Of a DNA stretch of 64,000 nucleotides, positions 47,664 to 62,934 are shown piece by piece. A program made the position numbers and the translations under genes. The DNA is from Salinibacterium sp. SWN248 (GTDB lineage Bacteria > Actinomycetota > Actinomycetes > Actinomycetales > Microbacteriaceae). The stretch is from the NCBI RefSeq assembly GCF_015864575.1, contig NZ_JADYWW010000001.1, positions 930,001 through 994,000 of the forward strand, read 5' to 3'. Under the pieces are notes generated by a model. That model searched no databases. It saw nothing but the letters and a program-made list of their open reading frames with translations, and was not told the origin of the DNA. How positions within the stretch are numbered: the stretch's first letter is position 1; the number at the start of each line of letters is the position of its first letter.

Positions 47664-48869
47664 ATGAGTCAACAGAATGCTCCGCGCATTGCAGTAATCC
47701 TGCTCGGCGCCGGAAACGGTACCCGCCTCGGCCGCAACGAGCCAAAAGCTTTCGTTCATCTCGCTGGCCGTCCGACCCTGAGCCGTGCTCTTGAATCCGT
47801 GTTCGCAATGGTCGATCCGATTCAAGTCATCATTACGGTGCCTAAGTCGTACGCTCCCATCGCCAAGCAGCTTGCGCGCTCGGTTCCGGGTGGTCGCGAC
47901 CACGAGCCAACGATTATTGTCGGTGGCGCTACTCGCCAAGAGTCCGTGGCAGCCGCGCTCGACTTCCTTGAGCCCAGCGTCGACGTTGTTCTTGTGCACG
48001 ATGCCGCGCGCCCGCTAACCCCGAGCGTTGTCTTCGACTCTGTTGCTGCTGAAGTTCGCAGCTCCGGCGCTGGCGTTGTTCCCGGCCTCCCGGTTGCCGA
48101 CACCATCAAACGCACGGATGACAGCGGCCTGATTGTTGAGACCGTTGATCGCTCGGTGCTCATGGCCGTCCAGACCCCGCAGGGCTTTCCCCGCGACCAG
48201 CTCGTCGCGTCGCACGCCGCTGCTCAAGAAGAGCACACCGATGATTCCGCGCTGGTAGCCGCCGCTGGCTATCCCGTCTCGATCATTGCTGGCGACCCTC
48301 TCGCGTTCAAGATCACCACGGCATGGGAGCTTCGTCGCGCCGAACAGTTGTTCACCGAGTCCGCGGCCACCGGCATCCGGGTCGGCACGGGCACCGATGT
48401 GCACGCCTACGATGAAACCAAGCCGCTCTGGCTTGCGGGTCTTCACTGGCCAGACGAGGTCGGCCTTCGCGGTCACAGCGATGGTGACGTCGTTGCGCAC
48501 GCAATCTGCGACGCAATGTTGTCCGCAGCGAAGCTCGGTGACCTCGGCAGCGTCTTCGGCACGAGCGATCCCAAATTCGAAGACGCTCACGGTGATGTGT
48601 TCCTGCGTGAAACTCTCTTCCTCCTTCGGGATGCGGGTTTCGAGGTTGGCAACGTTTCCGTTCAGCTCATCGGCAATCATCCGATGGTGTCGCGCCGGCG
48701 CGTTGAGGCAGAGGAGTTCCTCAGCGGAATCCTTGGTGCTTCGGTGAGTATCGCGGGCACGACATCCGATGCTCTCGGCTTTACGGGCCGCGGCGAAGGA
48801 ATGGCGGCGATCGCTACAGCGCTCGTGCACGTGCGCACTGTCGCCGAAGCGGCGCACAGCAAGGGGTAG
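47664..48869 (+). CDS. ispDF: Bifunctional IspD/IspF isoprenoid enzyme
   Basis: 401 residues, a fusion of 2-C-methyl-D-erythritol 4-phosphate cytidylyltransferase ([31 protein letters not shown]) and MECDP synthase (GTDVHAYDE with metal Asp/His, [28 protein letters not shown]). The second half starts at about residue 240. It makes two steps of the MEP pathway in the cytosol. It lacks an own strong ribosome site. Confidence 0.95.
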
Positions 48870-49186
48870 CTTCCCGCGTCGCCCCTGGCGCTGGAGTTTT
48901 TCTGGTTCCCGTCGCTTGGTCGTCGTTTTCCGAGCCTCGTTTCGCGAGTTCTAGCGGTGTGGGGCGCTCTGTCGCGCCCCGAACAAAATCTGAGTACTAC
49001 TTTTTTTCGGTTCTGCCTTGGTTCAATGCTTGTCGGACTGCTATACCTGTTATTACACGACTGTGAGCCCAATGCTCACATATGTGCAAATGCAGTACCA
49101 GGGTCGATGGGGACACGCACCTCACGTCTACGCCGCCGGCCCTGACAGGCGCCGACAACGAAGTTGCGGCTGGAGAAAGGTGTGAG
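48870..49186. other. Intergenic region ispDF-srlA
   Basis: 317 bp with no supported gene. It has a hairpin GGGGCGC/GCGCCCC at 48961-48980 that could end ispDF, a T-run at about 49000-49008, and the srl promoter and operator at 49018-49091. The small frame starting at 49082 lies in the srlA frame but is upstream leader. Confidence 0.6.
49018..49091 (+). promoter_or_regulatory. Putative srl promoter with palindromic operator
   Basis: TTGGTT (49018-49023), 18 bases, then TATACC (49042-49047) can be a sigma-70 promoter. The perfect inverted repeat TGTGAGC-N5-GCTCACA (49062-49080) would lie on the early transcript, and CACATATGTG (49077-49086) overlaps it. A repressor site is likely. Confidence 0.5.
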
Positions 49187-49894
49187 ATGCAATCTGTTCT
49201 GGACACGATAATCTGGGCGGCTGATTCGCCGCCAGTGCCGGCCAGCGATAACCCGTTCATTCAGGCCCTGACCTGGGGTGCTACGCACTTCATCGGCCTC
49301 TTCAACGCCTCGGGTGAAGCCCTTGTTGGTTTGGCTACCGGCATCCTGCCGACACTGATCGTGCTCCTCACGTTCATGTACGCAATCACCACCTGGGTGG
49401 GCGAAGCGCGCATGACTCGTGCGGTGCAGTGGTCAGCTCGTTGGGCCATCACTCGCTACACGCTTATGCCCATCATCGCGGTCATTGTGTTGACCAACCC
49501 GATGGCGTACTCCTTCGGCATCTATCTACCCGAACGACAGAAGCCGGCGTTCTACGACTCAGCAGTATCGTTCGTGCACCCCGTTACGGCTTTCTTCCCG
49601 CACGCTAACGCCGGCGAGATCTTCGTCTGGGCTGGTGTCTCGGCTGGAGTGCTCTCCATCGCTCCTGAAAAGTACCCGCTGCTCGCGCTGCTGTACTTCG
49701 GAACCGGCATCGTCGTTATCTTCATTCGTGGCATCGTCACCGAATGGATCACGAACCTGCTCATCCGTCGCCAGGGTCTGACCGCCGTCTTTGACGAGTA
49801 CGACCGCGAATTTGCTTTGGCCAGTGAACGCTTCATCGAGGCAAAGTCGACCAAGAAAACCGGATCCTCGGTTGCCACTGAAGGGACGGTGTGA
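49187..49894 (+). CDS. srlA: PTS glucitol/sorbitol-type IIC subunit
   Basis: 235 residues, five or so membrane helices, GutA-type (ALTWGATHFIGLFNASGEALVGLATGILPTLIVLLTF; RTKYTLMP-like RWAITRYTLMPIIAVIVL; THIP region FAHVHPVTAFFPHANAGEIFVWAG). ATG 49187 has GGAGAAAGG upstream; frames from 49082 are leader. It is the first gene of a PTS that would phosphorylate a polyol during entry. Stop overlaps the next start region. Confidence 0.92.
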   Translation: MQSVLDTIIWAADSPPVPASDNPFIQALTWGATHFIGLFNASGEALVGLATGILPTLIVLLTFMYAITTWVGEARMTRAVQWSARWAITRYTLMPIIAVIVLTNPMAYSFGIYLPERQKPAFYDSAVSFVHPVTAFFPHANAGEIFVWAGVSAGVLSIAPEKYPLLALLYFGTGIVVIFIRGIVTEWITNLLIRRQGLTAVFDEYDREFALASERFIEAKSTKKTGSSVATEGTV

Positions 49895-49896
49895 TC

Positions 49897-50952
49897 ATGA
49901 CTGAGAACACCTACAACAAAGTATTCGTCAAGCCTGGTAACGGCGGCTGGGGCAAGGGCCTCCTGCTCGAGCCCAGCGAGACCAAGAACGTCGTTCTCTC
50001 GGTTACCGGTGGTGGAATCCACCCGGTTGCCGCTCGCATCGCTGAACTGACTGGCGCAGAAGCTGTGGATGGCTTCACCAACAGCATTCCCGAAGAGCGC
50101 GTTGTCGCTGTCGTGATCAACTGTGGTGGAACCGCTCGCATCGGCGTTTACCCCAAGAAGCGCATGATGACAGTGGATGTCTTCCCGGGGGAGCCATCGG
50201 GCCCCCTCGCGAAGTACATCACCGACGATGTCTTCGTCTCCGCAGTGGGAACCGAAGATGTTGAACTGGCCGGAGGCTCAGCAGCGTTCGCAACTCACGC
50301 CGCTGAGGCATCCGCTGCATCCGAAGCTGCCATTGGTAGCCCGGCACCCTCGGGAGCCTTCGGTACGAGCAACGTTCAGCACTTCACGGCTCAGACCACA
50401 ACCGGTGGCGGTTTCATCGGTTTCTTCTCGAACATCGCGACGCGCTTCGGTTCGGTCATCGGAAACATCATCAACACGCTTCTGTCGTCTGGTCGCCAGA
50501 CTGTTCAGCTCGTGCTGCAGACGATCCTCCCGTTCATGGCGTACGTGAGCCTCTTGATCGGTTTCGTCACCTACTCCGGGCTGTCGGACCTGATTGCGCA
50601 AGCCGTCACGCCGCTGGCCTCGAACCCGATCGGCCTGATCCTGCTTGGTGTGATCACGGGACTACCGTTCCTGTCGCCCATCCTGGGGCCGGGTGCGGCT
50701 ATCGCTCAGGTCGTCGGTGTACTCATGGGTACACAGATCGCCGCTGGCGCTCTGCCCGTGCAGTACGCACTGCCGACGCTGTTCGCCATCAACGGTCAGG
50801 TTGGTTGTGACTTCGTTCCCGTGGGTCTTGCCCTCGGAGAAGCCAAGCCGGAGACGGTCGCAGTGGGTGTTCCCGCTGTACTCTTCTCTCGCCTGATCAC
50901 ATCGCCGCTGGCAGTCTTGATCGCGTGGGGCGCAAGCTTCGCACTGATCTAA
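49897..50952 (+). CDS. srlE: PTS glucitol/sorbitol-type IIBC subunit
   Basis: 351 residues. The IIB domain has Cys76 in VVAVVINCGGTARIGVYPKKR, and membrane helices occur in the second half (PFMAYVSLLIGFVTYSG; PIGLILLGVITGLPFLSPILGPGAAIAQVVGVLMG; INGQVGCDFVPVGLALGEA). It passes the phosphoryl group to the sugar. ATG 49897 is preferred; a GTG at 49891 overlapping the srlA stop is possible. Confidence 0.92.
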   Translation: MTENTYNKVFVKPGNGGWGKGLLLEPSETKNVVLSVTGGGIHPVAARIAELTGAEAVDGFTNSIPEERVVAVVINCGGTARIGVYPKKRMMTVDVFPGEPSGPLAKYITDDVFVSAVGTEDVELAGGSAAFATHAAEASAASEAAIGSPAPSGAFGTSNVQHFTAQTTTGGGFIGFFSNIATRFGSVIGNIINTLLSSGRQTVQLVLQTILPFMAYVSLLIGFVTYSGLSDLIAQAVTPLASNPIGLILLGVITGLPFLSPILGPGAAIAQVVGVLMGTQIAAGALPVQYALPTLFAINGQVGCDFVPVGLALGEAKPETVAVGVPAVLFSRLITSPLAVLIAWGASFALI

Positions 50953-50997
50953 CCAGCACAACCACCACACGTAACAGCAGAGAAAAGCGAGACAGCA

Positions 50998-51372
50998 ATG
51001 ACTACCTACTACCGCAGCGAGGTCACGTCCATCGGAACGGACGCCACCGAAATGTTCGAAGGAGGAGTGGTGATCTTCTTCGGAGAACCCTGCCCCACTG
51101 AACTGGCTGAGGTAAGCGTGGTCCACACTGTCGCGCACCACCACCCGCAGCGCGACCCCCAGCCGGGAGACGTGCTGCGGGTGGGGGACTCTGAAGTCAC
51201 CATTACGGAGGTCGGCGAAATTGCCGGACACAATCTCCGCACGCTTGGCCACTTCGTGGTCTACAGCGACCCAGAAGACAGCCAGAAAGTTCTCCCCGGC
51301 GCCATTCACGCGAAGGGCACACTCTCGTTGCCCAACGCAGGCGTCACCATTGAGCTCATCGAAGGTAGTTGA
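50998..51372 (+). CDS. srlB: PTS glucitol/sorbitol-type IIA subunit
   Basis: 124 residues matching SrlB. The active-site histidine lies in AEVSVVHTVAHHH (about 38-50) and the family end LRTLGHFVVYSDPEDSQKVLPGAIHAKGTL is present. It takes phosphate from HPr, encoded at 56650, and passes it to IIB. 46 bp separate it from srlE; AGAAAAGCGAGAC lies before the ATG. Confidence 0.92.
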   Translation: MTTYYRSEVTSIGTDATEMFEGGVVIFFGEPCPTELAEVSVVHTVAHHHPQRDPQPGDVLRVGDSEVTITEVGEIAGHNLRTLGHFVVYSDPEDSQKVLPGAIHAKGTLSLPNAGVTIELIEGS

Positions 51373-51373
51373 C

Positions 51374-51775
51374 ATGGACACCGGCTTCGCATTGCTGCTG
51401 ATGGCAGCGCTCGTTCTGAGCGTTGTATTCAGCCTTCTTCAACAGCGCACGTACTCGCGTGCAACCAAGCGCCTGGGAACCAGCTTCCTCGGCGTCAAAG
51501 ATCACTTCCTCGTCTCCGGACGAGGCAAGAACTTCCTCCGGGGAGCGATCGTGCTTCTCGTCGTCGACGCATCAACGTCGCGCATCGTGGCCGCTGAGGC
51601 CATGGTGGGCAGCACCGTGATGGCGCACTTCAAGCCGCGGCCCGAGCTGATCGGTGATCTCGATACCGCCGTGCTTCGCACGAAGGAAAAGATGATGACC
51701 GCAGCCGTGGACTACGCGACCAAGCAGTACTGGGTCACGTACAAGCGCAACGTCGCAGCGGCAGCCCGCAAGTAG
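51374..51775 (+). CDS. gutM: GutM-family regulator/associated protein
   Basis: 133 residues. One N-terminal membrane helix (about 5-22), then LGVKDHFLVSGRGKNFLRGAIVLLVVDASTSRIVAAEAMVG, which matches GutM (glucitol operon activator). It starts two bases after the srlB stop. Longer frames from 51221 overlap srlB. In E. coli GutM modulates gut transcription. Confidence 0.85.
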   Translation: MDTGFALLLMAALVLSVVFSLLQQRTYSRATKRLGTSFLGVKDHFLVSGRGKNFLRGAIVLLVVDASTSRIVAAEAMVGSTVMAHFKPRPELIGDLDTAVLRTKEKMMTAAVDYATKQYWVTYKRNVAAAARK

Positions 51776-51862
51776 CGACCGTGCATGCTCGGGTGCTTCG
51801 GCATCCGGCATTGCATCGTCGTTCCTATCGGGGCATACTAAATACACATACTTGATTAACTA

Positions 51863-51878
51863 ACGCACATAAGTGCAT
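51863..51878. promoter_or_regulatory. Inverted repeat upstream of the SAF oxidoreductase
   Basis: ACGCAC-N4-GTGCAT, 26-41 bp before the start at 51904. A near-identical ACGCAC-N5-GTGCAT lies upstream of the ABC operon at 62841-62857. Candidate operator of a shared regulator. Confidence 0.45.
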
Positions 51879-51903
51879 ACAACGTGGTTTCAAAGGGGTA
51901 GTC

Positions 51904-53229
51904 ATGGGTTACACAAACAAACTGCTTGCGCGTCAGCGTGAGGTCGGTCGTCCCGTCCGCATCGGACTCGTGGGAGCAGGCCAGATGGGCTCCGGCTTCA
52001 TCGCCCAGATCGCACGTCAAAAGGGCGTCGATATCACTGCCGTCGCCGACATCGCGATCGACCGTGCCGTAGGCGCTCTCGCCAACGCCGGCATCACCGA
52101 CGTCGACCAGTCGTCCGATCTTGACACTCTCGCCGCCACGATCGAAGCGGGCGGCCACGTTGTCGTCAACGACGCTCTTACGCTCCCCAAACTCCCCATC
52201 GACATGGTTATCGAGTGCTCGGGCGTTCCCGAGATCGCAGCCAAGGTCGCGCTGGCATCGCTGCTCGGCGGCAAGGACGTCGCCCTCATGACGGTGGAAG
52301 CAGACGTCACCGTCGGTCTCCTCCTGGCTCGCATCGCCGCCCAGACCGGCAACATCTACACGGTCTGCCGCGGCGACGAGCCTGTTGAGTGCCTCAAGCT
52401 CGTCGAGTACGTCGAAGACATCGGTCTCGACGTTGTTCTCGCCGGTAAGGGCAAGAACAACCCGCTCAACGAAACCGCTACCCCCAGCAGCCTCGAAGCA
52501 GAAGCAAAAGCCAAGGGCATGAACCCGCGGATGCTGTGCAGCTTCGTCGACGGAACCAAGACGATGATCGAGATGGCTGCCCTCGCTAACGCGGCAGACC
52601 TCGAGCTCACGAAGCGTTCGATGCACGGGCCGGCCGCAACAGTGCCGACCCTGCAGGACATCTTCAAGCCCATCGAAGACGGCGGAATTCTCGACCGCAG
52701 CGGTGTTGTTGACTACGCCACTGGCCCGGTTGCTCCCGGGGTGTTCGTCGTGGCCAAGGCAACCGACCCCGTTGTTCATGAGGAACTCAGCTACCTCAAG
52801 CTCGGTGAAGGCCCCTACTTCGCGTTCTACCGCCCGTACCACCTCGCCAGCGTCGAGGCAGTGCTGTCGATCGGCGAGGTCATGATCGACCGCCAGCCGT
52901 CGCTTGCTCCGATCGCCTGGAACGCAGATGTTTCGGCCATGGCTAAGCGCGACCTCAAGGTCGGCGAAAAGATCGACGGAATCGGTGGCGAGCACGTTTA
53001 CGGTGACGCTGTTCCGGCAGCCGAGGCCAAGGCTGGGCGCGAACTGCCCATCGGTCTCGCATCGGCGGGCACGCTCATCCGTGACGTTGCCCAGGGCACC
53101 GCGGTGACCTACGACGACGTTCAGCTCGACGAAACAAAAACCATTGTCATCTTGCGCAAGCTGCAGGATGCCCTTCTCGCCGATGGCCAGTTGCAGGTTC
53201 CTGCACTCGCGTCGTTGCTCTCCGCCTAA
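51904..53229 (+). CDS. COG4091-type NAD(P)-dependent oxidoreductase with C-terminal SAF domain
   Basis: 441 residues. The Rossmann domain shows IGLVGAGQMGSGFIAQIA (20-37), then DMVIECSGVPEIAAKVALASLLGGKDVALMTVEADV; the middle has LSYLKLGEGPYFAFYRPYHLASVEAV; the C-terminal SAF-like domain (about 350-415) includes GEHVYGDAVPAAEA and LPIGLASAGTLI. This is the homoserine-dehydrogenase-like family with SAF that occurs near polyol genes. AAGGGG precedes the ATG. The substrate is unknown; dehydrogenation of the PTS product is the natural guess. Confidence 0.85.
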   Translation: MGYTNKLLARQREVGRPVRIGLVGAGQMGSGFIAQIARQKGVDITAVADIAIDRAVGALANAGITDVDQSSDLDTLAATIEAGGHVVVNDALTLPKLPIDMVIECSGVPEIAAKVALASLLGGKDVALMTVEADVTVGLLLARIAAQTGNIYTVCRGDEPVECLKLVEYVEDIGLDVVLAGKGKNNPLNETATPSSLEAEAKAKGMNPRMLCSFVDGTKTMIEMAALANAADLELTKRSMHGPAATVPTLQDIFKPIEDGGILDRSGVVDYATGPVAPGVFVVAKATDPVVHEELSYLKLGEGPYFAFYRPYHLASVEAVLSIGEVMIDRQPSLAPIAWNADVSAMAKRDLKVGEKIDGIGGEHVYGDAVPAAEAKAGRELPIGLASAGTLIRDVAQGTAVTYDDVQLDETKTIVILRKLQDALLADGQLQVPALASLLSA

Positions 53230-53243
53230 GAAAGGTGACCTCT

Positions 53244-54218
53244 ATGAACACGCAGATCGTTGCGGACCGCGAACTCGCGGCAGCCAGCCTCGCCACCATG
53301 TGGAAGATCCGCCGCTTTGAAGAAGCAGTGGAAGACCTCTACGGCCGTGGGCTCATGCACGGCACCATGCACCTGTCGATCGGCCAAGAGGCCGTACCGA
53401 CCGGTGCCTGCCTCGCTCTCAACAAGGACGACTACATCACCTCGACGCACCGTGGCCACGGTCACTGCATCGCCAAGGGCGCCGACATGGAGCGCATGAT
53501 GGCCGAACTTCTCGCCAAGGAAACCGGCTACTGCCGCGGACGTGGCGGCTCGATGCACATTGCGGATACCGAAACCGGAAACCTCGGTGCTAACGGCATC
53601 GTTGCCGGTGGAATCCCGATCGCGACCGGCGCAGCGCTGTCGGCAAAGATGCGCGGCACCAAGCAGGTTGCGGTGAGCTTCCACGGCGACGGCGCGATGG
53701 GCGAAGGCGCCTGGCACGAGGGCGTTGTGCTCGCGGCCATGTGGCAGCTTCCCGTTGTGTTCCTGTGCGAAAACAACCTCTACGGAATGTCGATGTCGTC
53801 AGAGAAGGCCTTCAATCTCGACCAGCTTTCTGACCGCGCCAAGGGCTACGGCATCCCCGGAGTCACCGTTGACGGTAACGACGTTCAGGCTGTCTACGAT
53901 GCCACGAAGGAAGCGGTTGACCGCGCTCGTGCCGGCGGCGGACCGACCTTCATCGAAGCTAAGACGTACCGCTGGCGCGGACACTCGAAGTCAGATAAGA
54001 ACCTGTACCGCACGCGCGACGAGATCGATGAGTGGCGCGGCAAGGACCCGATCCCTCACTTCGAAGCTCTTGCTCTCGCCGCCGGTGGCCTCACGCAGGC
54101 TGACATCGACGCTGTGCGCGACAACGTGCGCACCGAGCTGCGCAGTGCCGTTCAGCGCGCCAACGCTGCGCCGGACGCCACTGCTGACGATCTTCTTTCC
54201 GCCGTCTACGCAAGGTAA
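53244..54218 (+). CDS. acoA: Thiamine-diphosphate dehydrogenase E1 alpha (acetoin-dehydrogenase-like)
   Basis: 324 residues. TPP motif [22 protein letters not shown] and [10 protein letters not shown] at about 155-195, and [15 protein letters not shown] and [10 protein letters not shown] typical of acetoin dehydrogenase E1 alpha. It cleaves the C-C bond next to a keto group and transfers an acyl unit to lipoyl. AAAGG precedes ATG 53244; a GTG at 53235 is less likely. E1 beta follows 5 bp later. Confidence 0.87.
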
Positions 54219-54223
54219 CAACG

Positions 54224-55261
54224 ATGACTATTGAGACGACCGCGGCCCAGCCCGCAGCGGCCCCCGCAACGGCCGAGACAGTGACAATGACCTACTCTGA
54301 GGCCATTCGCGACGCTATGCGCATCGCCATGGCTAAGGACCCCGCCGTCTTCATCATGGGTGAAGACGTCGGAACCTACGGTGGCGCCTTCGGAGTGACC
54401 GGCGAGCTGATCAACGAGATCGGCCCCGACCGCATCCGCGACACCACCATCAGCGAGCTCGGCATCATGGGTGCCGGTGTCGGTGCAGCGATGACGGGCA
54501 TGCGCCCGATCGTGGAAATCCAGTTCTCCGACTTCACGGCTCAGGCCATGGACCAGATCGCGAACCAGGCAGCGAAGATCCACTTCATGCTCGGCGGCGC
54601 GGTGAGCGTGCCGATGGTTATTCGCGCTCCCGGCGGTTCGGGAACGGGTGCTGCCGCGCAGCACTCGCAGAGCCTCGAAGCGTGGTTCGTGCACATTCCT
54701 GGACTCAAAGTTGTCATGCCAGCGACGGCGGATGACGCCAAGGGCCTGCTGCTGTCGGCCATCGACGACCCCAACCCGGTCATGGTTATCGAGCACAAGC
54801 TGCTCTACAAGACCTCGGGAGAGGTGCGCACGGGAGACATCCGCACTCCGCTCGGTGTCGCTGCTGTTCCTCGCGAGGGCAAGGATCTCACGATCATCGC
54901 CACCGGTGTCGAGGTGAGCCGCGCGCTCGAGGCTGCCGAGATTCTCGCCGCCGACGGTATCGAAGCAACCGTGGTCGACCCGCGCACACTCAAGCCGCTC
55001 GACAGCGACACCATCCTGCGCACCGTCAAGGCCACCGGTCGTGTCCTGCTTGTGCAAGAGGCTGTGCGTACACTCGGCTTCATGTCCGAAGTGTCTGCGA
55101 TCATCTCCGAGTCGGATGCCTTCGGCTACCTTCGTGCGCCGATCAAGCGTCTTGCTGGCCTCGACATTCCCATCCCGTACGCACCCAAGCTCGAACGCGC
55201 TTCGGTTCCTCAGGTTGAAGACATCGTCGCGGCAGCCACTGATCTCGTTCGGAAGTGGTGA
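54224..55261 (+). CDS. acoB: Thiamine-diphosphate dehydrogenase E1 beta (acetoin-dehydrogenase-like)
   Basis: 345 residues. [38 protein letters not shown], then [32 protein letters not shown]-like ([22 protein letters not shown]) and [17 protein letters not shown] match the E1 beta fold. About 20 extra Ala/Thr-rich residues lead the protein. It forms the heterotetramer with the alpha chain. Stop is one base from the E2 start. Confidence 0.88.
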
Positions 55262-55262
55262 C

Positions 55263-56573
55263 ATGTCTGAGCTGCCACTGACAATGCCCAAAATGTCCAT
55301 GACCATGGAAGAGGGCACGATGGTCGCGTGGCTCAAGCAGGAAGGTGACTCGGTTCGATCCGGGGAACCGATCTGTGAGGTCGCGACCGACAAAGTTGAC
55401 ATGGAGGTGGAGTCGCCGTTCGATGGCGTTCTGGCTCGCATCATTGGCCAGCCCGACGAGGTGTTCGCCGTGGGCGACACCATCGCGTTCATTACGACCG
55501 AGGCCGATGACCTGCTCGGCGGACTCTTCGATGAGCCCGCCATTGACGCTCCTGCTGCTGCTCCGGCTGCGGCGGAAGTAGCTCCGGCTGCCGTACCCGC
55601 CCCCATCGCAACCGGATGGATCCCTGCCGTTCCTGCCGCCCGGGGCGCAGCAGACGCCGCCGGAATTAACATCGCGACAGTCACCCCGACGGGCCCGGAT
55701 AACACTGTGCGCCTCGCGGATGTTGAAGCGGCTGTTGCGGGAACGTCGACCGCGCTGGCTGCCGCCGCGCCCATCGGGGCTCCTGTTGCGCCGGTTGTGC
55801 CCGCAACCCCCGCTCCCGTCGCTGCGCCTGCTGCAGCTGCTGCACCGGTAGCGGCACCCGCTGTCGCGCAGGCCGCTCCTGCCGCTCCCGCCGCTCCTGC
55901 CGCTGCGGTGGACCCGGTAGAAGCTCGCCGTCTGCGCACCCGCAAGCAAGTTGCCAAGGTGATGTCGGCATCCGCTCTCGTTCCGCAGTTCACTGCCTAC
56001 GTTGATCTCGATTTGTCAGCTTTGGCTGCCGTGCGCAAAACCACGCTCGGCGGCGCAAGCTGGACTGCACTCTTCGTGCGGGCTCAAGCAATCGCTCTGG
56101 CCGAGAACGCTGCGCTCAACGGCACCTGGACTGATGGGGGAGTCGCTGCCAACGAGCACATCGGAATCGCGCTCGCGATTGACTCACCATCGGGGCTCAT
56201 CGCGCCGGTGCTGACGAACTCGCACGAGGGAACGCTCGCTGAGCTGGTAGCCGAAATCGCCACCGTCGTAGACGAGACGCGTAACGGCACACTACCGCCA
56301 GCGCGCCTCGGCGGCGGAACAAGCGTATTCTCGAACCTGGGGGGATTCGGCGTGGAATCGTTCAACGCACTACTGACACCACCGCAGTCGACGGCTCTGT
56401 CGTCGGGGGCCGTCAAGCCACGCATGCGCGTGTTCGCTGATGGAACCTTCGGTGTTCGTTTGAGCTGCACGATCGGCCTCACCGTCGATCACCGTGTAGC
56501 TGATGGTGCGGATGCCGCACGCATGCTCGCGACCATCACCAACCTCGTCGCGACCCCGGAGCGCTTGCTCTAG
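55263..56573 (+). CDS. acoC: Dihydrolipoamide acyltransferase E2
   Basis: 436 residues. Lipoyl domain with Lys44 in EVATDKVDMEVESP; Ala/Pro-rich linkers; a peripheral-subunit-binding region near IPAVPAARGAADAAGINIATV (about 118-138); catalytic domain ending LTVDHRVADGADAARML (His-x3-Asp-Gly). It moves the acyl group to CoA. Frames from 55041 lie in acoB and are shadows. No E3 gene is present, so the housekeeping E3 would be used. Confidence 0.9.
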   Translation: MSELPLTMPKMSMTMEEGTMVAWLKQEGDSVRSGEPICEVATDKVDMEVESPFDGVLARIIGQPDEVFAVGDTIAFITTEADDLLGGLFDEPAIDAPAAAPAAAEVAPAAVPAPIATGWIPAVPAARGAADAAGINIATVTPTGPDNTVRLADVEAAVAGTSTALAAAAPIGAPVAPVVPATPAPVAAPAAAAAPVAAPAVAQAAPAAPAAPAAAVDPVEARRLRTRKQVAKVMSASALVPQFTAYVDLDLSALAAVRKTTLGGASWTALFVRAQAIALAENAALNGTWTDGGVAANEHIGIALAIDSPSGLIAPVLTNSHEGTLAELVAEIATVVDETRNGTLPPARLGGGTSVFSNLGGFGVESFNALLTPPQSTALSSGAVKPRMRVFADGTFGVRLSCTIGLTVDHRVADGADAARMLATITNLVATPERLL

Positions 56574-56649
56574 AGCCGCAACCCGCTCGCGGGTTCCACC
56601 CCAGCGCTCCGTACGGGCGCTGTCCACCACGTTTCGAAATAGGTACACC

Positions 56650-56907
56650 ATGTCAGAACGCACAGCCACAATCGTTTCGCCGTCCGGACTTCACGCCCGC
56701 CCCGCTGCACTGTTCACGCAGGCCGTCAGCAAGAGCGGTTTCAAGATCACCGTCGCTAAGGGTGAGAAGGCTGTCAACGCAGCTAGCATCCTCGCCGTTA
56801 TCTCGCTCGGTGTCTCGCAGGGCGAAACCGTCACGATTGCCTCCGATGATGAGGGCGCTGACAGCGTTCTCGACCAGCTCGTAGAACTGCTCTCCACCGT
56901 CGAATAG
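56650..56907 (+). CDS. ptsH: Phosphocarrier protein HPr
   Basis: 85 residues. His15 in SPSGLHARPAALF is the phosphorylation site; Ser46 in AASILAVISLGV matches the regulatory serine. It carries phosphate to the IIA domains of the srl and gat systems. AATAGGTACACC precedes ATG 56650. EI is not in the window. Confidence 0.95.
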   Translation: MSERTATIVSPSGLHARPAALFTQAVSKSGFKITVAKGEKAVNAASILAVISLGVSQGETVTIASDDEGADSVLDQLVELLSTVE

Positions 56908-57096: not shown

Positions 57097-58533
57097 TTAG
57101 GCCTTGGCTGCTTCTTCGTCGGATGCTGCAACAGCATCCGCTTCGACCTGAGCACGAACGATGTCGCGCTTCTTTTCGAGGCGGCTCACCCAGTAGGCGA
57201 ATCCGAGGGAGAGAACGGCGAGGACCGCAATGGTCCAGCCGCCGAGGTTAGCTACTCCGAAGAACAGGCCGGTCAGAGGGTTAGCTCCGTCGACGAGCGA
57301 CGAGATGAGCTGTGATCCCTGGTTGTCGCTAAAGCCGGACGCTTCGGCGATGGCCGTGAACTGCGGTGCCGTTGCGGTGGCGATGAACAGGCCGATCGCA
57401 ATAACGATGGCGCCACCGATGACGGAGCGCACGATGTTGCCACGGAAGATCGGAACCATCATGGCCACGATGAACGGCAGGGTCGCAAGGTCAACGAGCG
57501 GCAGCACCTGGTTGCCCAGGGGAGCAAGCGCAATAGCGATCAACACGGTAACCGGCACGAGCACGAGCGACGTCGCGAGCACAGCAGGCTGGCCTACCGC
57601 GATTGCGGTGTCGAGTCCGATGTAGAACTTACGGCCGGGGAAACGCTTCTGCACGAACTCGCGAGCGGAGTCGGAGACGGGGATGAGGCCTTCCATGAGG
57701 ATCGACACCATGCGCGGCAGTAGCAGCAGAACGGCAGCGAGGCTGATGGCGAGAACGAGAATTGCGATCGAGTCTTCACGCGGGTCGTCGAAGCCGAAGC
57801 CAGCGAGCCCGATGATGATTCCGAGCACGAGACCGAGGATCATCGATTCGCCGAAGACACCGAAACGCTTCTCGATGGACTGCGGGTCCGCCTTCAGGTT
57901 GCGGAAGCCGGGGATGCGGTCGAAGATCCAGTTGAAGGGGATCGCGAACAGAATGTACGGCGCGCTGGTGCCGTGCGGGAACGAGATGTCGGGGAAGTTG
58001 AAGTACTTCTGAATCAGCGGCGCAGAGAGGTCGGCAAGGGCCAGAACGATCACCATGTGCACGGCGGCCGCGGCGATACCGATCCAGAAGTTGTCGGTGA
58101 CGGCACCGACGAGAGCGCCGACGAGGGCGAAGTGCCAGAAGTTCCACAGGTCGATGTTGAACGTGCGGGTAAGGCCTGACCACAGCAGCAGCATGTTGAC
58201 GAGGATGCCGACAGGGATAATCACCGCCCCGATGGTTGATCCGAAGGCGATGGCGGCACTTGCGGGCCAGCCAACGTCGAGAACGGTGAGGTTCACGCCG
58301 AGGTTCACGGCGAGAGCCTGCGCGGCGGGGCCAACGGTGCCGGCCATGAGGCCGATGACGAGGTTGATTCCGATGAAGCCGATACCGATGAGGACACCGG
58401 CGCGGAGGGCTTGGCTAAACTTTTGGCCAAGAATCATGCCGAAGATGGTGATGAGGATCGGCAGGGTGACCGCGGCACCGAGTGCCGTGAGATAGCTGGT
58501 GATATTCGTCAGAATATCTTCAATGATGTTCAA
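57097..58533 (-). CDS. gatC: PTS galactitol-type IIC subunit
   Basis: 478 residues with about ten hydrophobic segments. Family segments are LTALGAAVTLPILITIFGMILGQKF at the N-terminus, WPASAAIAFGSTIGAVIIPVGI, and SFPHGTSAPYILFAIPFNWI; the C-terminus is acidic. It would translocate a hexitol. No gatD, gatY or gatZ is near. Together with 58637-58918 it is one operon; IIB is upstream, 103 bp away. Confidence 0.92.
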   Translation of the reverse strand: MNIIEDILTNITSYLTALGAAVTLPILITIFGMILGQKFSQALRAGVLIGIGFIGINLVIGLMAGTVGPAAQALAVNLGVNLTVLDVGWPASAAIAFGSTIGAVIIPVGILVNMLLLWSGLTRTFNIDLWNFWHFALVGALVGAVTDNFWIGIAAAAVHMVIVLALADLSAPLIQKYFNFPDISFPHGTSAPYILFAIPFNWIFDRIPGFRNLKADPQSIEKRFGVFGESMILGLVLGIIIGLAGFGFDDPREDSIAILVLAISLAAVLLLLPRMVSILMEGLIPVSDSAREFVQKRFPGRKFYIGLDTAIAVGQPAVLATSLVLVPVTVLIAIALAPLGNQVLPLVDLATLPFIVAMMVPIFRGNIVRSVIGGAIVIAIGLFIATATAPQFTAIAEASGFSDNQGSQLISSLVDGANPLTGLFFGVANLGGWTIAVLAVLSLGFAYWVSRLEKKRDIVRAQVEADAVAASDEEAAKA

Positions 58534-58636: not shown

Positions 58637-58918
58637 TTAGGCGAACTGCTTCTCGATTTCGGCATACACCTTGTCGAGGCCCATTCCGGTAAGGAACGGG
58701 AGTCCGGCGATAACGGGGATTCCGACCGAGTCGGGCACTTGGGTAGTGGCGACGATGAAGTCTGCAGCGAGGTCGCCGCGCAGAGTGTCGGTTACTTTGC
58801 CTTGCGAGATTGTGGCGTCGAGGCCCTTGGAGGCGCAGAAATCCTTAATCTTGGTTGCAACCACGGTGGATGTTGCTACTCCGGTGCCGCAGATCACGAG
58901 GATGCGTTTTGAGGCCAA
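58637..58918 (-). CDS. gatB: PTS galactitol-type IIB subunit
   Basis: 93 residues. Cys10 lies in KRILVICGTGVATSTVVATKI, the phosphorylated P-loop of this IIB family; the end is GMGLDKVYAEIEKQFA. TTG 58918 is the chosen start, with GGAG nine bases upstream; no ATG or GTG fits, while a frame beginning at 58969 would add 17 residues with no family match. It passes phosphate from IIA to the sugar. Confidence 0.88.
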   Translation of the reverse strand: MASKRILVICGTGVATSTVVATKIKDFCASKGLDATISQGKVTDTLRGDLAADFIVATTQVPDSVGIPVIAGLPFLTGMGLDKVYAEIEKQFA

Positions 58919-58950
58919 TTTCGATACTCCAATGTATTCGCGAAGGACTG

Positions 58951-58991
58951 TTGTGACACAATTATGCACGTTTGATGTACAAATGTGTACA
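58951..58991. promoter_or_regulatory. Palindromes between gatB and gatA
   Basis: TTGTGACACAA (58951-58961) is a perfect palindrome, and TGTACA-AATG-TGTACA (58976-58991) repeats a palindromic hexamer, both in the divergent region. Candidate operators for a DeoR/GntR-type regulator. Confidence 0.4.
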
Positions 58992-59074: not shown

Positions 59075-59599
59075 ATGAGCGACACGACCAACGCAGCTGC
59101 GGCAGACACCAACCACGACGGCGCGACCGCGGCCGTGGTGCCCCGCGCCGATCTCAGTTTTGTGGGGCTGCGCGCCAATTCGAGCGCGGAAGTTCTCACG
59201 GCTTTCGCGACCCAGGCACTCGCCGTCGGAGCCGTGCATCCCACCTATGAGGTGGCACTTCTCGAACGCGAAAGCGCGTACCCCACCGGGCTGCCGACCG
59301 TCATCCCTGTCGCTATCCCGCACGCGGATGTCGAGCATGCCATCGAATCAGGCCTCGGGATTGCGATGCTGGCAGAGCCAGTTCACTTCGGCGAGATGGG
59401 CGGAGCTGACTCCACTGTCGCAGCCAGAGTCGCGGTGCTCATTTTGGTCACCGAGCCGCACGTGCAAACGGAGATGCTCACGCAACTCATCGCCGTGTTT
59501 CAACTCGATGGCTGGCACGAGGCTCTGAGCGCCGCCACGACTCCCGAGGAACTCGCCTCAGCGTTCGCGGGCCTGCTGGCCTCAACCGCCGCTCAATAA
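59075..59599 (+). CDS. gatA: PTS IIA subunit, galactitol/fructose type
   Basis: 174 residues. Phospho-His83 in TVIPVAIPHADVEHAI, and LTQLIAVFQLDGWHEAL, match EIIA-2. The first 25 residues are an Ala/Thr/Asp-rich extension not found in short GatA. Divergent from gatBC, 157 bp apart. Receives phosphate from HPr. ATG 59075 follows GGATGAGGGTTC. Confidence 0.9.
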   Translation: MSDTTNAAAADTNHDGATAAVVPRADLSFVGLRANSSAEVLTAFATQALAVGAVHPTYEVALLERESAYPTGLPTVIPVAIPHADVEHAIESGLGIAMLAEPVHFGEMGGADSTVAARVAVLILVTEPHVQTEMLTQLIAVFQLDGWHEALSAATTPEELASAFAGLLASTAAQ

Positions 59600-59648: not shown

Positions 59649-60569
59649 CTACTTCATTCCGCTGAGGGCGACGCCTTTCACGAGGAAACGCTGAAGAGTG
59701 ACAAACAGAATGATCGTCGGGATCATGCTGATCATCGTTGCGGCATTGATGAGGTTCCACTGGTTGAATTCTGATCCCGCGAAGTTCACGAGCCCTACTG
59801 TCACCGTGTACATCGCTTCGTCTTGAGCGACGAGCAGTGGCCAGAGGAACGTGTTCCAGGTGAACATGAACTTGATGATCACGAAAACTACGATCGCGGG
59901 AGCGACCATGGGCGTGATGACGCGAGTGAGAATGCGAAGCTCGCTTGCGCCATCCACTCTGGCAGCTTCGACGTAGCTGAAGGGGATCCCCTCCATGAAC
60001 TGCCGGAGCAAGTAGACGCCGAGAACAGTGAAGAGGTCGGGTAGCGCCATGCCGATGTAGGTGTTGGTGAGTCCCGCTTCAGAGACCATGAGGAACATCG
60101 GGATGACGAGGGCCTCTTGGGGCACCATGAACAGTGCGAGCACTAAGAGAAAGATGGGCTCTTTGAACGGGAACTGGTAGTACGCGAAGGCATACGCCGC
60201 CAGCAGGGCGATGACCAAGCTCGTGACGATACCGATGCCGGTCACGATAAAAGAGTTCGCGATGTATTGCCCGAAGTTGTACTGAGCGAAGAGCTGCACA
60301 TAGTTGTCAAAATTGAAGAAGTTGTCTGGCAGCCAGCGCACAGGAACTTCGAGAATTTCTGACGGTTTCTTGAGTGACGACAGCGCTACCCAGACCAGTG
60401 GCAGCGTCATGAGGATGCCGCCAAGAGCCAGAGCAGTAAAGATTCCTGCTTGCTTCAGATTATGAAGCGAGCGCCACGACCTCTTGCGAGCGCGCACTGG
60501 TGCGGGGCGCACAGCCGGGGATGAGTCGGCAGCGGTCGACGGGCGGTCCTTGATCGATGACGTACTCAT
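59649..60569 (-). CDS. Sugar ABC transporter permease, MalG type
   Basis: 306 residues. A basic N-terminal tail (about 1-40), six helices, EAA loop SYVEAARVDGASELRILTRVITPM, and the C-terminus LVKGVALSGMK. ATG 60569 overlaps the MalF-type stop (ATGA), whereas 60665 would lie in that gene. CUT1 importer with no ATPase nearby. Confidence 0.92.
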   Translation of the reverse strand: MSTSSIKDRPSTAADSSPAVRPAPVRARKRSWRSLHNLKQAGIFTALALGGILMTLPLVWVALSSLKKPSEILEVPVRWLPDNFFNFDNYVQLFAQYNFGQYIANSFIVTGIGIVTSLVIALLAAYAFAYYQFPFKEPIFLLVLALFMVPQEALVIPMFLMVSEAGLTNTYIGMALPDLFTVLGVYLLRQFMEGIPFSYVEAARVDGASELRILTRVITPMVAPAIVVFVIIKFMFTWNTFLWPLLVAQDEAMYTVTVGLVNFAGSEFNQWNLINAATMISMIPTIILFVTLQRFLVKGVALSGMK

Positions 60570-61471
60570 TCTGAGATGTCCTTTGTAAAGATTTTGCGGA
60601 TAACGGCGGTGATCGCTACTAAGAACACGAAGAAGATTACGACGTAGACAGCCGCTTCGCCCCATCGGTCAAGGCGGAATGCCAGCTCGTAAATTTCCAT
60701 CACCATCGAGCGGCTTGATCCCACCGGCCCGCCCTTGGTGGCGACGAAGGGGAGCTCGAAGAGCTTGAACGCATTCATGACTTCGACGCTGATGACGAGT
60801 ACTAGTTGCTTATTGAGCAGCGGCAGGGTGATCGACCACAGCATGCGAAGCGGCCCGGCACCATCGAGACGGGCCGCTTCGTAGTAGGAACGATCAATTC
60901 CATTGAGCCCTGCCACCAGAATGATCACATTGAATCCGAGACGTGCCCAGATGTACATGATCGCGAGCGAGGGAATCACTTGCCCATCGCTCGTGAGCCA
61001 GTCCTGCCCAGGGATGCCAAAGAATCCGAGGATGCTATTGGCAAGCCCATAGGCAGGATTGAAGATCCACAGCCATACAAATGCCACCGCGGTGAGCGAG
61101 GCGACGACGGGCGCAAAATACAGCGCCCGTATCAGTCCAGATCCACGTTTCCACAGCAGGGCATTGAATCCGAGCGCGACGATCAACGAGAGGACCACAC
61201 CGATTGGCACTCCGAGGAGTGTGAAGTACAGGGTGTTGCCTGCGGCGTTGATGAAACGTTCGCTGGTTACTACAGACACGTAGTTGTCAATGCCGATGAA
61301 CTCGCGTCGTCCGATAACGGACCAGTCAAAGAAACTGATGACGATGTTGTAACCCAAGGGAATGAGGAACAACAGAATGACGAAGAACAGCGCGGGGGCG
61401 AGGAAGAGGAACGCTCGAATGGTGGTGCGCCGAGAGAACGTCTTCTGGGGCCCGAGAGTGGGGACTGTCAT
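60566..61471 (-). CDS. Sugar ABC transporter permease, MalF type
   Basis: 301 residues with six helices (first about 20-40) and EAA loop SYYEAARLDGAGPLRMLWSITLPLL. Pairs with the 59649-60569 permease. AAAGGCTTCACC precedes the ATG. The binding protein gene is 31 bp upstream. Confidence 0.92.
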   Translation of the reverse strand: MTVPTLGPQKTFSRRTTIRAFLFLAPALFFVILLFLIPLGYNIVISFFDWSVIGRREFIGIDNYVSVVTSERFINAAGNTLYFTLLGVPIGVVLSLIVALGFNALLWKRGSGLIRALYFAPVVASLTAVAFVWLWIFNPAYGLANSILGFFGIPGQDWLTSDGQVIPSLAIMYIWARLGFNVIILVAGLNGIDRSYYEAARLDGAGPLRMLWSITLPLLNKQLVLVISVEVMNAFKLFELPFVATKGGPVGSSRSMVMEIYELAFRLDRWGEAAVYVVIFFVFLVAITAVIRKIFTKDISE

Positions 61472-61502
61472 GGTGTGAAGCCTTTCGAACTAGCTGCGGT
61501 GG

Positions 61503-62789
61503 TTACTTGCCTCGTTCGAGCAATTCGTTGACTTCGGTTACCGCACCGTCGAGTGACTCGCGGACGTCGGCGCCTTGGAGCGCGCTTTCGATTGCGGCAC
61601 CGACGGCAGTTGCGATCTGATTGGTGTACGGCGCGTTGTAAACCGGGCCTGCACCTTCATTGAGTTGCTTCTCAACAGCGACGTAGTCGGTGCGGTCGAG
61701 AACATAGGGATCTTCGAAGTTCTCGCTCCATACCGGCATGTAGCCCTCGAGCTGGGCGAGTTCGAGATCGAGTTCGGGGTCAGAAATCGCCCGCATCCAA
61801 TCCCAGGCGAGGTCACTGTTTTCGCTGTTGGCATTGACCATCCAAGCCCAGTTGAATAGCAGGCTCACTTTGGGGTAGCCGGCGTCACCAGTCGGATAAG
61901 GAACGACTCCGAAATTGACGTCGGGGGCGTTTTGCTTGAGCCAGCCCTCGTACCAGCCCTCACGGAAGGTCATCGAGGAGAGTCCCTGCGCAAAGGTGTC
62001 ATCAGGGGTGCCAAGCTGCAAGCTTGAAACGCCGTCGGTCACCATGTCTTGCATGTACTGAATCCCCGCCACCGTTTCGTCGCTGTTGAGGTAGCCATCG
62101 GCGGTTGAGTTGTCTTCTGCATAGAGGCGGCCGCCGAAAGCGTGGATGTAGGGAAGCGCCTTGTCGACGATGCCAGTGGGGTTGCCCGAGTAACGAAGTG
62201 CCATTCCGTTGCGGGTGACGGTGCCCGATGAATCCTGTGTCGCGAGAAGGTCGGCGTATTCGCGAAGTTCTTCGAAGGTCTCGGGCGGGCTGTCGGGGTC
62301 AAGGCCAACCTCGACGAACTGGTCGATGTTGTAGAAGAGTTCCATGCCCAGGTCAGAGCTGACCGGGTAGCCGCTCCATTCGCCATCGACCTTGAAGTTG
62401 CCGGCAGTGAGAGGAGTCAGGTTCTCTTCCCACAATTCCTGCAGGTCATCCGGAGCCTGGTCGGCGACGCCAAGCGCGCCGCCGTAGTAGGAGACTTGAC
62501 CCATGAAGATATCGGGAGCGTCGCTCTTGCTCGCGAACCCTGCGGTGTAGCGGGCTTCGTACTGGCCGTAAGGAATGTCGACGTACTTGACGGTGACGTT
62601 GGGGTGTTCTTTTTCGAAGTCTGCGATCTTGTCTTTGTAAAAATCTGTTGTTTGGCGCCAGTTGTCCTGGGGGTTCCAAATCGTCAACGTCGCCTCCCTG
62701 TCGGGATCGGTCGATGCCGTCGAACATGACGACAAACTGACCGCGGCCACTACTGCGAGTGCCAGCGTTCGCCTAATGCTGTGTTTCAT
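61503..62789 (-). CDS. Sugar ABC transporter substrate-binding lipoprotein
   Basis: 428 residues. Lipobox SLSSC (Cys22). CUT1 receptor fold (LTIWNPQDNWRQTTDFYKDKIADFEKEHPNVTVKYVDIPYG; FREGWYEGWLKQNAPDVNFGVVPYPT; VNELLERGK at the C-terminus). ATG 62789 is fixed by AAGGAGG; 62846 would add 19 residues before it. Binds the sugar at the cell surface. SDR and RbsD/FucU genes are divergent, so the sugar may be fucose-like; inference. Confidence 0.93.
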   Translation of the reverse strand: MKHSIRRTLALAVVAAVSLSSCSTASTDPDREATLTIWNPQDNWRQTTDFYKDKIADFEKEHPNVTVKYVDIPYGQYEARYTAGFASKSDAPDIFMGQVSYYGGALGVADQAPDDLQELWEENLTPLTAGNFKVDGEWSGYPVSSDLGMELFYNIDQFVEVGLDPDSPPETFEELREYADLLATQDSSGTVTRNGMALRYSGNPTGIVDKALPYIHAFGGRLYAEDNSTADGYLNSDETVAGIQYMQDMVTDGVSSLQLGTPDDTFAQGLSSMTFREGWYEGWLKQNAPDVNFGVVPYPTGDAGYPKVSLLFNWAWMVNANSENSDLAWDWMRAISDPELDLELAQLEGYMPVWSENFEDPYVLDRTDYVAVEKQLNEGAGPVYNAPYTNQIATAVGAAIESALQGADVRESLDGAVTEVNELLERGK

Positions 62790-62840
62790 TCGGTCCTCCT
62801 TGACTGATGAGCATTTCCGCGCCGTTTGCTTGTGCAACAT

Positions 62841-62934
62841 ACGCACGCATTGTGCATCTTATGGGCGCCCCGCGAGGGCTGTCAAGCGAAAAACAAGTTC
62901 TCTGATATACCAATATCTGTGCGTAGAATGCACA
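62841..62934. promoter_or_regulatory. Inverted repeats between the ABC operon and the SDR gene
   Basis: ACGCAC-N5-GTGCAT (62841-62857) lies 52-68 bp from the binding-protein start. TGTGC-N7-GCACA (62918-62934) is closer to the SDR start. Both are in the divergent promoter region; the first is shared with the site at 51863-51878. Confidence 0.45.

Follow-up and report, generated by a model that had tools for sequence, protein, structure and literature searches.

DXR-II, also called DRL, is described in the available text of PMC3847144 as an alternative to DXR for converting 1-deoxy-D-xylulose 5-phosphate (DXP) to 2-C-methyl-D-erythritol 4-phosphate (MEP), with 11 members verified by complementation; four tested members of two sister families, DLO1 and DLO2, failed complementation. 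The available text of PMC3424233 reports that a mutant aceE of E. coli can provide DXP in vivo, with no rescue by the wild type, and cites Yokota and Sasajima (1986) for the formation of 1-deoxyketoses by pyruvate and acetoin dehydrogenases. We analysed a 64,000-nucleotide stretch of Salinibacterium sp. SWN248 DNA (contig NZ_JADYWW010000001.1; the whole stretch is called the window here), in which nine genes at positions 49187-56907 join a glucitol-family phosphotransferase system (PTS) to a DXR-II homologue and a thiamine diphosphate (ThDP)-dependent dehydrogenase complex. We consider it likely that this operon encodes a catabolic pathway for 2-C-methyl-D-erythritol (ME) in which the first two steps of the MEP pathway are reversed.

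The locus opens with the PTS and GutM families of the glucitol/sorbitol operon srlAEB-gutM-srlD: srlA (IIC component, 49187-49894, with an alternative ATG at 49082; EII-GUT PF03608, 4.5e-62; NF049923 above cut-off), srlE (IIBC, 49891-50952; EIIBC-GUT PF03612 and PF07663; NF049924 above cut-off), srlB (IIA, 50998-51372; PTSIIA_gutA PF03829, 2.3e-25) and gutM, for an activator/accessory protein (51374-51775; GutM PF06923, 1.1e-12). Unlike that operon, it lacks srlD and continues with the DXR-II gene (51904-53229; DRL_cat PF21135, 1.5e-63; NAD_binding_3), E1 alpha (53235-54218; E1_dh PF00676, 5.1e-89), a transketolase-type E1 beta (54224-55261; PF02779 and PF02780), an E2 acyltransferase (55266-56573; lipoyl PF00364, E3-binding PF02817 and acyltransferase PF00198) and HPr (56650-56907; PF00381). 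All nine match their Pfam families above the curated cut-offs on a single (plus) strand, with neighbouring genes overlapping by 4 bases at one extreme (srlA/srlE) and lying 128 bases apart at the other (gutM/oxidoreductase), so that Pfam and the open reading frames (ORFs) agree with the layout given in an original prediction made from the sequence alone. By the same two kinds of evidence, and as also predicted, the interval has no room for acoR, a butanediol dehydrogenase, an SrlD-type short-chain dehydrogenase/reductase or an aldolase. It also contains neither acoL nor an E3 gene by ORFs and Pfam, and in its lack of acoR, acoL and butanediol dehydrogenase it differs from the acetoin dehydrogenase system AcoABC. 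A lipoamide dehydrogenase above the curated cut-off is encoded at another place in the window genome. We rejected a sorbitol operon because no SrlD-type sorbitol-6-phosphate dehydrogenase is among the nine genes at 49-57 kb, the remaining genome not having been searched for SrlD.

The oxidoreductase had been assigned to COG4091 and credited with a SAF domain, of which Pfam scored none at E 0.001; judged by its sequence, it is a DXR-II/DRL family enzyme. At E 0.001 a sequence search of the PDB finds no relatives other than 3UPL, matched at 3.7e-100 across residues 8-429, and 3UPY, the Brucella DXR-II (PMC3847144). The same source names K191, K193 and T229 for substrate binding, and the window enzyme retains all three along with H250, R320 and Y322 (Brucella numbering; the anchor and divergence sites are K182, K184, T220, H241 and R310 in window numbering). 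In a 61-row tree the protein falls on the side of the NGR234 and Listeria innocua proteins, apart from the DLO-like ones (low support of the separating branch, 74/61); PMC3847144 lists both species with DXR-II. Family membership predicts an enzyme that interconverts DXP and MEP. It would differ from its Brucella counterpart, with which it shares the family and the conserved substrate-anchor residues, in working from MEP to DXP with NAD and in belonging to a catabolic operon.

Because the COG4091 protein belongs to this family, a specific substrate chain can be named. The polyol is most likely ME, the methyl ketone DXP and the sugar phosphate D-glyceraldehyde 3-phosphate, as predicted from the families involved. 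The original prediction had a polyol phosphate turned into a methyl ketone and split by E1/E2, an outline that fits the evidence; its suggested 1-deoxy alditol is less likely than the branched tetritol ME, and the DXR-II/DRL identity had been missed.

The cofactor signature is consistent with oxidation. Where the second Rossmann strand ends, an Asp or Glu with a hydrophobic residue after it usually marks an NAD enzyme, and the window DXR-II carries this signature as D49-I50, where the Brucella DRL has Ala-Arg in the 3UPL alignment. Among DXR-IIs whose locus has a PTS, E1 or a kinase, 72 of 72 carry the pair; among those with none of the three in the sequence examined, 9 of 18 do, and in the other nine the second residue is Arg, Thr or Ser (five near-identical same-genus rows are left out of the count). 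The window enzyme would therefore be of the NAD type, which fits MEP oxidation.

Downstream, the ThDP-dependent E1 alpha and beta and the lipoyl E2 resemble AcoABC and, as proposed here, would likewise convert CH3-CO-CHOH-R to acetyl-CoA and an aldehyde. E2, with its TDKVDMEV lipoyl motif, E3-binding domain and DHRVADG catalytic motif, has the make-up of a 2-oxo acid dehydrogenase E2. Both E1 subunits score best in the PDB with pyruvate dehydrogenase, and E1 beta also matches DXS weakly. DXS acts on the same C2-C3 bond through a hydroxyethyl-ThDP intermediate, whereas the window E1/E2 is proposed to work in reverse, oxidatively and without decarboxylation. E1 alpha is set apart by a GHSKSD loop, in which K stands for the Met of GHSMSD in human pyruvate dehydrogenase E1 alpha, and by T44. 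GHS[KR]SD is found in 64 of 64 DXR-II-linked E1 alphas and in 0 of 23 others, none of the latter checked as a proven AcoA, and T44 is likewise present in 64 of 64 linked sequences and is mostly Phe in the others. These counts leave out rows spanning less than 75% of the reference; paralogs came from a search of 25 genomes, from which 20 stretches were taken for comparison. Two paralogs within DXR-II loci (near position 18 kb of L054 and L055) belong to another clade and were counted among the others; treated as linked, they would bring the motif to 64 of 66. A basic residue in this loop would suit a phosphorylated substrate. In an 87-row E1 alpha tree, 50 linked rows form one group (94/82) that takes in Actinomycetota, Pseudomonadota, Chloroflexota and one contig labelled Bacteroidetes. 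Separately, the E1 alpha rows of L083, labelled Bacteroidetes, and L084, from Acidimicrobiia, are identical, and L083 is therefore probably misbinned.

The gene neighbourhood recurs widely. A genome-contig scan with a nine-protein DXR-II alignment gave at least 564 confirmed relatives, and we compared the best 80 loci, in order of similarity to the window protein; these include near relatives (Cryobacterium, Amycolatopsis, Salibacterium and two near-identical Spirochaetaceae), and their counts are accordingly not independent. Counting genes up to 10.5 kb from DXR-II, we found SrlE in 54 of the 80 loci, E1 alpha and beta in 48 and both in 43; the 44 well-flanked loci, where each side offers 7 kb or more, gave 36, 34 and 33. 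Among 20 control loci (DLO-like, from the same order and picked among 34-39% matches), Srl occurred in none and E1 in one. The original prediction had named failure of the PTS-COG4091-E1 pairing to recur as a refutation, and the pairing does recur: these 33 of the 44 well-flanked loci have it, while none of the 20 controls has Srl. Loci with Srl and E1 are spread over Actinomycetota, Chloroflexota, Bacillota and Spirochaetota, with Pseudomonadota plasmid records besides, and because the arrangement recurs across phyla it is not due to chance. In one well-flanked locus scored as having the PTS without E1 (L124), an E1/E2/E3 set with GHS[KR]SD lies just beyond the stretch counted.

Elsewhere the transporter is exchanged. 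Agrobacterium and NGR234 have an ABC transporter and a PfkB-type kinase in place of the PTS, with DXR-II and E1/E2, and Priestia has an FGGY kinase and an MFS transporter beside DXR-II, with Srl and E1/E2/E3 genes about 5-12 kb away. These swaps retain the logic of a phosphorylated substrate. In the Agrobacterium cluster a lipoyl synthase gene, lipA, follows E3 (L043:18303-19277), which suits a lipoyl-dependent pathway.

As we propose it, SrlAEB would take up ME and phosphorylate it with phosphoenolpyruvate, yielding MEP and pyruvate, and DXR-II would oxidise MEP with NAD to DXP and NADH. E1 alpha/beta would then cleave DXP at C2-C3, releasing D-glyceraldehyde 3-phosphate, and the hydroxyethyl unit would pass to the lipoyl-E2 and on to acetyl-CoA, with E2 reoxidised by the genomically encoded E3. 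The net reaction of E1/E2/E3 would be DXP, CoA and NAD to acetyl-CoA, D-glyceraldehyde 3-phosphate and NADH, and both carbon products could enter central metabolism. In MEP-pathway hosts with a distinct IspD-type gene, part of the imported MEP could go to isoprenoids. Each of these steps is predicted from protein families, gene context and residues. A broader reading holds that ME catabolism is the main, perhaps the original, role of DXR-II, that DXR-II was recruited only later to biosynthesis in Brucella, other Rhizobiales and Planktophila-like actinobacteria, and that the pathway is a microbial sink for plant ME and for the 2-methylerythritol that isoprene yields in the atmosphere; for that reading we see the balance as even.

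All the enzymes come from known families; the pathway would be new, and it looks widespread and apparently undescribed. In openly licensed literature, covered by titles and abstract openings, we found no account of ME catabolism by such an operon; subscription papers fall mostly outside that scope, so earlier proposals may exist. A 2026 review, in the text available, describes the distribution of Dxr as still without a defining pattern (PMC13001223). If the pathway is right, it would explain a seemingly redundant isoprenoid enzyme in many bacteria, and a DXR-II gene alone would be no evidence of isoprenoid synthesis. It would also add a bacterial growth route on ME, and 2-methyltetrols, tracers of isoprene aerosol (PMC5171866, in part), could be removed biologically in this way; in PMC6529453 2-methyltetrols are named in the reference list only.

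Of the rival explanations, isoprenoid salvage survives best, although we think it improbable: ME would be imported as MEP to feed IspD only, DXR-II would be a spare biosynthetic DXR and E1/E2 would be incidental. It is favoured by a distinct IspD-type gene that 30 of the 80 loci have no more than 10.5 kb from DXR-II, recognised by NK[AVI] and then an aromatic residue, as opposed to PKA in the window ispDF (PK[AQ] in the usual type). The IspD neighbour of L061 is of the housekeeping type and stands outside this count. The distinct gene is the only strong IspD match in some host genomes, such as Kocuria rosea, and its product therefore probably acts on MEP. This partner speaks for MEP as the product of the PTS and points to a side route into isoprenoids in hosts able to use MEP. 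Salvage also draws on six Planktophila-like actinobacterial metagenome-assembled genomes (MAGs; L070-L073, L078 and L098), in which DXR-II adjoins the distinct IspD-type gene with no PTS or E1 in the sequence examined; the five that were searched genome-wide have no DXR-I match, and DXR-II is likely biosynthetic in this group.

Host genomes argue against extending that role to the operon. We searched DXR-I, IspD, IspH and HMG-CoA reductase in 49 host genomes of the 80 loci, and nine had HMG-CoA reductase with no IspH or DXR-I match. All nine retain Srl and DXR-II, eight of them with E1 as well. MAGs make up several of the nine, and two of them, from Spirochaetaceae, are almost the same, but Terrimesophilobacter mesophilus is represented by an isolate whose contig measures 2.4 Mb. 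Because the markers seen in these hosts are those of the mevalonate pathway and not of the MEP pathway, DXR-II should have no part in making isoprenoids there. The distinct IspD type is found in 0 of these 9 hosts, compared with 21 of 38 IspH-positive ones. Two more of the 49 genomes have neither marker and are probably incomplete. One genome, which we take to be that of Chloroflexus aurantiacus J-10-fl, carries SorC, E1 alpha, E1 beta, E2, SrlA, SrlE (a partial match), SrlB, DXR-II, HPr and PtsI in one cluster; this genome's two other homologues score lower, and the one examined does not have the GKGKNNP motif. According to the available text of PMC3847144, Chloroflexus aurantiacus is mevalonate-only and encodes a DXR-II active in complementation, and that enzyme appears to sit in such a cluster. 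The window genome itself encodes an ordinary DXR-I and ispDF, and a biosynthetic role for its DXR-II was rejected on the strength of this DXR-I and of the mevalonate-only hosts. The presence of E1 in 34 of 44 well-flanked loci and the NAD-type signature of linked DXR-IIs count further against salvage.

A shade less probable than salvage is the same scheme with another substrate, a 1-deoxy alditol or other methyl tetritol, on which the oxidoreductase would act as a plain dehydrogenase and E1/E2 would cleave a 1-deoxyketose phosphate. The chemistry is known at the family level only, and a second, galactitol-type PTS beside the operon suggests more than one substrate. Opposed to this are the published DXR activity of DXR-II members, probably including one from this cluster type, the IspD-type partner genes, which point to MEP, and the conserved substrate-anchor residues. 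A chance association of acetoin or 2-oxo-acid dehydrogenase genes with a polyol PTS whose neighbouring oxidoreductase is unrelated is very improbable, the best PDB scores of E1 alpha and beta, to pyruvate dehydrogenase, being outweighed by linkage across phyla with PTS in 0 of 20 control loci, the E1 signature (64/64 vs 0/23) and the 50-row E1 alpha group (94/82). The distinct E1 signature and the cross-phylum linkage likewise led us to reject an ordinary acetoin or pyruvate dehydrogenase as the neighbour of a polyol PTS.

Several observations, besides the relatedness of the loci compared, weigh against ME catabolism. ME as the PTS substrate is itself a prediction. The branch that divides DXR-II from DLO in the tree is poorly supported, and the NAD-type pair also occurs in 15 of 25 DLO rows and is thus not specific. 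Relative to Brucella, the window DXR-II has A at G121 and, at the dimer interface, K at E174 and Y at F178, and 8 of 95 DXR-II rows have a residue other than Thr at T229 (7 Ala, 1 Ser). The GHS[KR]SD motif was defined post hoc on the same data, and that the loop borders the E1 active site is our assumption. The E1 alphas of Bacillota and Spirochaetota, and of a few MAGs, are not resolved into one clade with that of the window. Both Srl and E1 are missing from seven of the 44 well-flanked loci: five from Rhizobiales-type Alphaproteobacteria (by record title), one from an uncultured actinobacterium and one from a Hyphomicrobiales MAG, where genes for an ABC ATPase and a PfkB-type kinase are present. 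The stretches examined from Listeria and Ligilactobacillus contain PTS and DXR-II genes but no E1.

Some loci hint at variants of the scheme. The DXR-II loci L040, L105 and L107 contain a fructose-6-phosphate-aldolase-like gene, in Ligilactobacillus together with a transketolase, with no E1/E2 in the sequence examined; this is perhaps another DXP-splitting route in anaerobes. In one of the 20 DLO controls (L150:9326-15000), an E1 alpha/beta/E2 set adjoins the DLO-like oxidoreductase, its E1 alpha lacking GHS[KR]SD, and may possibly represent a parallel pathway for another substrate. The Listeria innocua record L039 (NZ_CP095725.1), 475 kb and labelled as a plasmid, bears chromosomal-looking genes, and the label may be wrong.

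Across the window genome and its same-genus relatives (G000-G026), the DXR-II gene is present at 97% identity or more in six genomes and without a match in the others; the cassette is therefore accessory. The housekeeping ispDF (MEP cytidylyltransferase/cyclase, 47664-48869, plus strand; PF01128 and PF02542) lies outside it, with one terminator-like site on its 3' side (48876-48891), and was found in 18 of 18 searched same-genus genomes without DXR-II. We compared this site in four same-genus genomes lacking the operon. In G009, an HPr-like stretch comes after ispDF, and ORF reading then gives a hydroxyacyl-CoA-dehydrogenase-like gene and cysS; in G020, ispDF directly joins sequence that lies past window position 59.6 kb. 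Because HPr stands directly 3' of ispDF in a same-genus genome without the operon, it is perhaps not a dedicated part of the cassette. Scans of the operon gave one promoter site against 1.6 expected and nine terminator-like sites against 5.3 expected, and neither result was used.

Beyond HPr lies the second PTS, with a galactitol-family IIC (57097-58533, minus strand; PF03611), IIB (58637-58969, minus strand; PF02302) and IIA (59075-59599, plus strand; PF00359). The galactitol-family IIC recurs beside DXR-II in 12 of the 80 loci, and its substrate is perhaps 1-deoxy-D-xylulose, which we name as a candidate. A SorC-type regulator starts about 1.06 kb past the window end. Between this PTS and the SorC regulator, at 59649-62846 and in L204, lie an ABC transporter and, by reading, an IclR-like regulator; the stretch is missing in the same-genus relatives L130, L131 and L134 and is present without the operon in L201 and L202.

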